Source of the DNA: Psychrobacillus psychrodurans
Lineage (GTDB): Bacteria > Bacillota > Bacilli > Bacillales_A > Planococcaceae
Direction of reading: 5' to 3'
Assembly: GCA_900114885.1 (NCBI GenBank)
Contig: FOUN01000002.1
Span: forward strand, 434,001-498,000
Length of the DNA: 64,000 nucleotides
Under the pieces are notes generated by a model, which saw only the letters and a list, made by a program, of their open reading frames with translations, was not told where the DNA came from and did no database searches. Below are positions 52,731-59,516 of this stretch, one piece after another (position 1 is the first letter of the stretch; each line of letters opens with the position of its first letter). Made by a program: the position numbers and the translations under genes.

Positions 52731-52759
52731 TTGCAAAAAATTTAAGGACTTGTTATTCT
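52731..52759 (+). promoter_or_regulatory. Candidate promoter of the riboflavin operon
   Basis: TTGCAA (52731-52736), a 17-bp spacer and TATTCT (52754-52759) end 19 bp before the first FMN aptamer. No comparable promoter is seen between the three aptamers, so all three probably lie on one leader. The 52500-52730 stretch holds nothing else recognisable. Confidence 0.5.
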
Positions 52760-52777
52760 TAGACCAATTAAATAATT

Positions 52778-52903
52778 TATCCTTCGGGGTCGGGTGAAAG
52801 TCCCAATCGACAGTAAGAGAGCAATCTTGAAGCCTGTGAGCCGTAAAACGCATGATTTGGTGTGAATCCAAAGCCGACAGTTATAGTCTGGATGGGAGAA
52901 GGA
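52778..52903 (+). ncRNA. FMN riboswitch (RFN element), copy 1
   Basis: Matches the RFN consensus: opening TATCCTTCGGGG, then GGGTGAAAGTCCC, GAAGCCTGTGAGCC, GGTGTGAATCC, AAAGCCGACAG and the closing GTCTGGATGGGAGAAGGA. All six peripheral helices can be traced. FMN binding is expected to favour the terminator downstream. Confidence 0.95.
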
Positions 52904-52979
52904 ATAAGTGCCTATTGTATAGGTTTTTTAGTTATACTAAAAAACGATATAAAAGGGCTTATTAAAGTACGACTTCTCT

Positions 52980-53010
52980 CGCATCCAATGAATTCTGGAT
53001 GTGTTTTTTT
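52980..53010 (+). terminator. Terminator of FMN riboswitch copy 1
   Basis: An eight-pair stem (52980-52987 with 52996-53003, one G-U) and seven T. A second perfect 11-bp hairpin (53055-53065 with 53073-53083) follows without a T-tract. Confidence 0.75.
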
Positions 53011-53142
53011 ATGTCTAGTTACAACGAATAGCTCCTCATGTCGTTTCAGTCTGGGCAATAAAGGCAAAGGTAGCCTTTATTGCAATTATTATCCGGTTGT
53101 CTAGGCTGGCATAGGAGCTTGCGCTTTTTTAAATTGAATAAT

Positions 53143-53268
53143 TATCCTTCGGGGTCGGGTGAAAGTCCCAATCGACAGTAAGAGAGCAATCTTGAAGCCT
53201 GTGAGCCGTAAAACGCATGATTTGGTGTGAATCCAAAGCCGACAGTTATAGTCTGGATGGGAGAAGGA
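53143..53268 (+). ncRNA. FMN riboswitch (RFN element), copy 2
   Basis: Identical to copy 1 over the aptamer as far as I can read; starts exactly 365 bp later. No gene lies between copies 1 and 2. Confidence 0.95.
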
Positions 53269-53344
53269 ATAAGTGCCTATTGTATAGGTTTTTTAGTTAT
53301 ACTAAAAAACGATATAAAAGGGCTTATTAAAGTACGACTTCTCT

Positions 53345-53375
53345 CGCATCCAATGAATTCTGGATGTGTTTTTTT
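53345..53375 (+). terminator. Terminator of FMN riboswitch copy 2
   Basis: Same stem and T-run as after copy 1, shifted by 365 bp. The 11-bp hairpin recurs at 53420-53448. Confidence 0.75.
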
Positions 53376-53507
53376 ATGTCTAGTTACAACGAATAGCTCC
53401 TCATGTCGTTTCAGTCTGGGCAATAAAGGCAAAGGTAGCCTTTATTGCAATTATTATGCGGATGTCTAGGCTGGCATAGGAGCTTGCGCTTTTTTAAATT
53501 GAATAAT

Positions 53508-53633
53508 TATCCTTCGGGGTCGGGTGAAAGTCCCAATCGACAGTAAAAGAGCAATCTTGAAGCCTGTGAGCCGTAAAAAGCATGATTTGGTGTGAATCCA
53601 AAGCCGACAGTTATAGTCTGGATGGGAGAAGGA
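53508..53633 (+). ncRNA. FMN riboswitch (RFN element), copy 3
   Basis: Two base differences from copies 1 and 2 (AAAAG for AAGAG, and AAAAAGC for AAAACGC); all conserved core motifs are kept. This is the copy directly upstream of ribE. Confidence 0.95.
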
Positions 53634-53692
53634 GTAGTTCGATGCTTTTTGAGAAATATTTACAAAAGGCTTGTTTGAATCTACCTAATTTT

Positions 53693-53730
53693 CCTCTGTC
53701 ACCTTTGTGGGCGGAGTTTTTTGTTTTTAA
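53693..53730 (+). terminator. Terminator of FMN riboswitch copy 3
   Basis: CTCTGTCAC pairs with GTG-GCGGAG including G-U pairs and one bulge (53694-53702 with 53707-53716), followed by TTTTTTGTTTTT. It is unrelated in sequence to the terminators of copies 1 and 2. Confidence 0.7.
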
Positions 53731-59237: not shown

Positions 59238-59261
59238 ACTATTCAATAAAAGCATATAAAT

Positions 59262-59516
59262 TCGTTGAAGAGAAAGAGTAATGTATCGATTTGTTCCCCA
59301 GAGAGCTGATACCTTGGTGAAAGTCAGTGTGCAGGTTATACATGAATATCCTCTCTGAGAAGAAGAGCTGAAGATTTTAGTAAGCTTATCCGGGTGTCTA
59401 CCGTTAAAAAGAACACGTATGATTTGTACGTTGCTAAGTGCTATTGGATCGGCTCAATAGAATTAGGGTGGTATCGCGGTTAACCCCGTCCCTTTACTCG
59501 GGACGGGGTTTTTTGT
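59262..59516 (+). ncRNA. Isoleucine T-box leader
   Basis: A full T-box leader: Stem I with an AGAGAGCTGATACC start, specifier codon AUC (59348-59350) in the specifier loop, and the T-box sequence AGGGTGGTATCGCGG (59465-59479). Within it the UGGU pairs with the tRNA acceptor end. The terminator is an 11-bp stem (59482-59492 with 59500-59510) with a T-run. Uncharged tRNA-Ile should turn on ileS. Confidence 0.95.

Follow-up and report, generated by a model that had tools for sequence, protein, structure and literature searches.

Tandem arrangements of riboswitches for a single ligand have been described several times, and those for FMN are the closest relatives of the locus examined here. Triple FMN riboswitch arrays are catalogued in a 2022 article on the architectures and complex functions of tandem riboswitches (PMC9481103). 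Its main text gives four FMN triplets, as a count only, and classes the same-ligand tandem arrangement as pseudo-cooperative. For Bacillota, Morales and Merino (2025; PMC12452182) report double or triple FMN riboswitches upstream of ribE-ribB-ribH; they discuss this operon, and for ribE, ribB, ribH they list FMN FMN (87%) and FMN FMN FMN (13%). A triple tandem of c-di-GMP-I riboswitches, from Bacillus thuringiensis, is reported to give a more digital output (Zhou et al. 2016, cited in PMC9481103). A sequence-only reading of the present DNA knew of no described triple FMN array. Novelty cannot stand beside the double and triple arrays in the passages of PMC9481103 and PMC12452182, the latter placed before ribE-ribB-ribH. 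The two papers rule out a novel triple array, and the array described below is a further case of a known arrangement.

The window, a stretch of 64,000 nucleotides from Psychrobacillus psychrodurans, belongs to contig C22 (545 kb); the genome measures 4.0 Mb, and its assembly consists of 47 contigs. It contains three full-length FMN aptamers on the + strand (cmscan, RF00050). Their scores lie about 40 bits above the gathering score of 66.2, with E-values of about 1e-23, which excludes chance as the source of the matches. The spacing from aptamer to aptamer is exactly 365 and 365 nt. This agrees with the three complete RFN aptamers 365 bp apart of the sequence-only reading, whose starts (52778, 53143 and 53508) each fall 2 nt inside those of the cmscan matches. 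The stretches 52777-53141 and 53142-53506 differ at just two positions (53093, C/G; 53097, T/A), the two substitutions that had been noticed. Aptamer 3 differs from aptamer 1 by two internal mismatches and two at the extreme end. All three units have the aptamer fold and conserved core of RF00050, and riboflavin genes, namely ribE-ribB-ribH, follow downstream. As in pseudo-cooperative tandems, one gene is preceded by several complete riboswitches of a single class, every one of them equipped with a separate expression platform, and no gene intervenes. The coordinates are collected in Table 1.

Table 1. Features of the array and of the downstream operon, in window coordinates.
Feature	Position	Strand	Basis and remarks
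Probable promoter of whole array	52731..52759	+	Pattern and distance to aptamer 1 common to six related species
FMN aptamer, unit 1	52776..52907	+	RF00050, 106.3 bits
Antiterminator 3' arm, unit 1 (predicted)	52973..52986	+	Nascent-leader RNA folding; overlaps terminator 5' arm
Intrinsic terminator, unit 1 (predicted)	52980..53010	+	Terminator scan; stem 52980-53003, then T-run; -10.6 kcal/mol
Spacer 1	53013..53130	+	Interspersed genomic repeat copy; long imperfect hairpin, T-run near end, -37.4 kcal/mol
FMN aptamer, unit 2 (copy of unit 1)	53141..53272	+	RF00050, 106.5 bits
Intrinsic terminator, unit 2 (predicted)	53345..53375	+	Terminator scan; stem 53345-53368; identical to unit 1
Spacer 2	53378..53495	+	Second repeat copy, 98% identical to spacer 1
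FMN aptamer, unit 3	53506..53637	+	RF00050, 106.6 bits
Antiterminator 3' arms, unit 3 (CTACC, TTCCTC; predicted)	53681..53696	+	Nascent-leader RNA folding
Intrinsic terminator, unit 3 (predicted)	53694..53722	+	Hairpin and T-run, folding; last-unit type kept in six-species clade
ribE, riboflavin synthase, 211 aa	53777..54412	+	Sequence; homologues found with protein; Shine-Dalgarno AAAGGAGG just 5'
ribB, DHBP synthase without GTP cyclohydrolase II domain, 203 aa	54425..55036	+	ORF
ribH, lumazine synthase, 154 aa	55049..55513	+	ORF; order ribE-ribB-ribH conserved genus-wide

A terminator but no gene accompanies each of units 1 and 2, as had been read from the sequence; the 80-aa ORFs between the units are mechanical calls and not genes. 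A coding role for them was rejected, since the homologous stretch is interrupted by stops in relatives. This check translated one frame, which differs from the listed GTG frame; by eye, and in one relative (G004) alone, the GTG frame itself meets a stop after 18 codons.

Each unit also carries the elements of a transcriptional switch. In unit 1, RNA folding indicates that the aptamer 3' strand GGATGGGAGAAGG (52890-52902) is able to pair with CTTCTCTCGCATCC (52973-52986), giving 13 antiterminator pairs versus 0.2 in shuffles; the arrangement in unit 2 is the same. The minimum-energy fold of the whole unit 1 leader omits the FMN-bound aptamer fold, as expected in the absence of the ligand, and the predicted switch is for this reason drawn from partial folds. 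The terminator of unit 3 is unlike those of units 1 and 2 and has its own competing arm; its antiterminator arms CTACC and TTCCTC are predicted to pair with the 3' end of the aptamer and with the extension of this end. The sequence-only reading had called this terminator unrelated. At the terminator, the platform of unit 3 is indeed unlike platform 1, yet it is the type conserved in last position in a clade of related species rather than a newcomer. A scan of 89 units from 35 genomes finds a hairpin followed by a T-run in 88 of them. Pairing between aptamer and terminator arm averages 8.6 pairs across the 89 units, versus 1.7 with the platform shuffled. Fewer than six antiterminator pairs are predicted in 23 of 88 units; this is partly due to the crudeness of the scan, which in a few units takes an aptamer-proximal hairpin instead of the terminator.

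A motif resembling AGGCTTATTTG (e.g. at 53667-53677) lies between aptamer and terminator of most units and recurs, genus- and family-wide, in platforms that are otherwise dissimilar. One may guess at a part of the antiterminator or at a pause site.

The whole array probably forms one transcript. A candidate promoter upstream of unit 1 consists of TTGCAA (52731-52736), a 17-nt spacer and an extended -10 element, TGtTATTCT (hexamer 52754-52759), with transcription expected to start near 52766. The pattern TTGCAA-17-TATnnT with extended -10 is found 16-17 nt upstream of aptamer 1 in six related species. Its score is matched by 8 of 200 shuffles in the window and by 8-12 of 200 per species across the six, so that the weight of the call lies in the position and sequence common to these species. 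In the window, the best matches between units do not rise above the scores of shuffled sequence, and an internal promoter was rejected on this ground, in line with the earlier remark that none is evident there. In two relatives (G007 and G008), and likewise in the four- and five-unit arrays described below, the next aptamer follows within about 10 nt of the T-run, which leaves little room for a promoter between units. Judged by sequence only, a promoter pattern stands ahead of unit 1 alone, and the proposal that one transcript has to pass three FMN-responsive stops is probably right.

The array is very probably a homotypic tandem of three complete transcription-terminating FMN riboswitches, placed in series in one leader RNA before ribE-ribB-ribH. 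The sequences show its anatomy, its conservation and its phyletic distribution; we infer FMN binding, termination, use of the promoter and independence of the units. Transcription would begin at a single promoter upstream of unit 1. FMN would stabilise each aptamer and thereby withhold its 3' strand from the antiterminator; the terminator would then form and RNA polymerase would stop. Without FMN, the antiterminator would form and the polymerase would pass. Full-length mRNA would require escape from three stops, and its amount would be roughly the product of three readthrough probabilities. Such a series would respond at lower FMN, reach a much deeper off-state and have a response range that is modestly narrower.

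A dose-response model, the product of independent switches with per-unit leaks of 0 to 0.2, gives these effects their size. With three units rather than one, the modelled midpoint falls to 0.26-0.34 of Kd, the 10-90% span narrows to 32-43-fold (versus 81-fold), the effective Hill number is 1.17-1.26 and the leak is raised to the third power. An FMN-free readthrough below 1 per unit lowers the maximum output in the model, to about half for 0.8 per unit. The sequence-only reading had expected a much steeper off-switch; the modelled rise in slope is modest, off-state depth and threshold change more, and 'deeper off and lower threshold' is on this modelling the better summary. Its NOR-like logic is likewise not borne out: one ligand serves all inputs, and the pseudo-cooperative class of PMC9481103 is not a Boolean one. 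A two-input riboswitch logic gate, which takes different ligands, was rejected for three near-identical FMN aptamers.

The units are separated by a sequence of a different kind. The 118-nt spacer behind each of the first two terminators is a repeat interspersed in intergenic DNA, with many further copies elsewhere in the genome (68-76% identical). At E <= 0.001 the source genome has 13 matches, the two array copies included; G004 has 15 and G005 has 17, and the repeat is scarce or absent in the remaining members of the genus. That the spacer might be another structured RNA was considered and rejected: a permissive Rfam scan gave only the three FMN matches, and the spacer is the interspersed repeat. 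Modelled as a hairpin, the repeat could possibly exert a constitutive terminator or pausing effect, independent of FMN. Since it is present in both spacers, the duplicated block comprises unit 1 and the repeat behind it; this block would have been duplicated recently to yield the middle unit. About 200 extra bases, rich in inverted repeats, lie between the last terminator and ribE in G004 (L052) compared with its relatives; they are perhaps another repeat element.

Arrays of this type are common among close relatives. A search of related genomes for repeated RFN matches, of the kind proposed with the sequence-only reading, finds FMN arrays in 17 of 19 genomes of the genus and in 58 of 121 of the family, 15 of the 58 having three or more units; the arrays were counted by eye in the match lists. 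Among 80 genomes from other families of the class, a single one (G141) has an array, a doublet (Fisher p about 4e-15 for the family against these other class members, in a test that leaves relatedness aside). At all 35 loci of the unit scan, the array precedes a riboflavin operon that starts with ribD or ribE. The longest, of five units, occurs in G112 (L151, C1:1208220-1209144) with a spacing of 201-202 nt and a terminator in each unit, upstream of an intact ribD-ribE-ribBA-ribH operon. Four-unit arrays are found in G035 (L152) and G079 (L153). A further one, in G088 (L154, C2), includes a unit in which part of the sequence is given as N; counts from draft genomes probably miss some arrays of this kind. 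The main-text passages of PMC9481103 and PMC12452182 make no mention of four or five FMN units, and arrays of this size may be new. In G042 (L163, C1:259938-260230), two adjacent weak FMN matches upstream of ribE (39.8 and 35.1 bits, both under the cut-off) may represent a single aptamer interrupted by an insertion, or two that have decayed.

Comparison of a six-species clade (G000, G004, G005, G007, G008 and G014) suggests how the triplets came about. First platforms are nearest to first or middle ones and last platforms to last ones. Both types are thus conserved across species, which places the two-unit array before the six species, and it appears to be ancestral in this Psychrobacillus clade. 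The nearest relative of 11 of the 15 clade aptamers is a paralogue within the same genome, and in each of the three triplets the platform nearest to the middle one is the first of its own genome. Sequence similarity thus points to the third unit of the triplets as either a later copy of unit 1 or a unit homogenised with it; in the window, the earlier suggestion of recent amplification fits well with a middle unit that copies unit 1 but for two mismatches. The triplets of G000, the genome of the window, and of G004 may go back to one common triplication or to separate ones. More tentatively, and with some doubt on our side, the number of FMN riboswitches upstream of the riboflavin operon might be a fast-evolving, selected setting in this family: two units would be old in the clade of the window, copies would be repeatedly added and homogenised, some lineages would reach four or five, and FMN threshold and leak would be lowered in a graded manner.

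Stacked units could also serve mutational robustness rather than tune the dose response, by keeping the operon repressible if one riboswitch is lost. Every unit is complete and could act alone, and one broken unit in series leaves repression to the others; but second-order selection is usually weak, the sequence predictions are the same as those of the main explanation, and we hold this to be unlikely. It is more improbable still that only the last unit regulates ribE, be it from an unseen promoter before unit 3 or because one unit is enough, with the upstream units as unselected by-products of a recombination-prone repeat. Such by-products would accord with the near identity and recent duplication of units 1 and 2, with copy numbers that vary among close relatives, with the proneness of repeats to unequal exchange and with the modest slope gain from a third unit in the model. 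Against this, two-unit arrays keep both platforms across species, terminator and antiterminator intact; arrays persist throughout most of the genus; and the promoter matches between units stay at shuffle level, several relatives having no space for a promoter.

The count of three might itself be an artefact of assembly, the true number of units being smaller (one or two) or larger. A near-perfect 365-nt repeat is longer than common short reads, the source assembly is in 47 contigs, and in the array of G088 one unit is in part N. However, two sites distinguish unit 1 from unit 2 and further ones set unit 3 apart, and triplets with unit-specific differences recur on very long contigs, namely in G004 (three units about 365 nt apart, in a genome that is mostly one 4.2 Mb contig) and in G008 (about 247 nt apart, one contig). 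An artefact is therefore very unlikely, and the serial tandem remains the preferred reading.

As for the genes under control, RibE has its best named relative in Psychrobacillus antarcticus (84% identity). The sole GTP cyclohydrolase II match of the genome is on another contig (C30), where ribA and ribD are adjacent (L174:7126-8968), beside heme synthesis genes. In the first 14 kb of this contig, an Rfam scan with permissive settings found no FMN riboswitch near ribA-ribD, and control of these two genes by a further one was rejected. With ribA-ribD elsewhere and free of a detected FMN riboswitch, the array seems to govern ribE-ribB-ribH only; the committed step of riboflavin synthesis may lie outside direct control by FMN. 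The only other FMN riboswitch of the genome lies on contig C12, upstream of a gene read from its sequence as ribU. The window also holds an ordinary T-box leader (59256-59496), ahead of an isoleucyl-tRNA synthetase gene.

The triplet of the window is a clear instance of an arrangement already described. The larger value lies in the family, which offers a natural series of two-, three-, four- and five-unit arrays on similar operons. With it one could test directly how threshold, slope and leak respond to the stacking of identical riboswitches, and whether selection or drift sets the copy number.

Among known systems, the tandems of PMC12452182 are the nearest, since they likewise place two or three FMN riboswitches ahead of ribE-ribB-ribH and come from Bacillota as well; the source genome, the duplication of a unit and the repeat spacer are not described in the passages concerned. 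The four FMN triplets of PMC9481103 may or may not include the window array. Tandem TPP riboswitches (reference 54 of PMC9481103) are likewise complete one-ligand riboswitches in series, each terminating transcription, but they differ in ligand and aptamer and usually comprise two units, not three. The c-di-GMP-I tandem of B. thuringiensis matches the window array in having three complete one-ligand riboswitches in series, and differs in its ligand and aptamer class.
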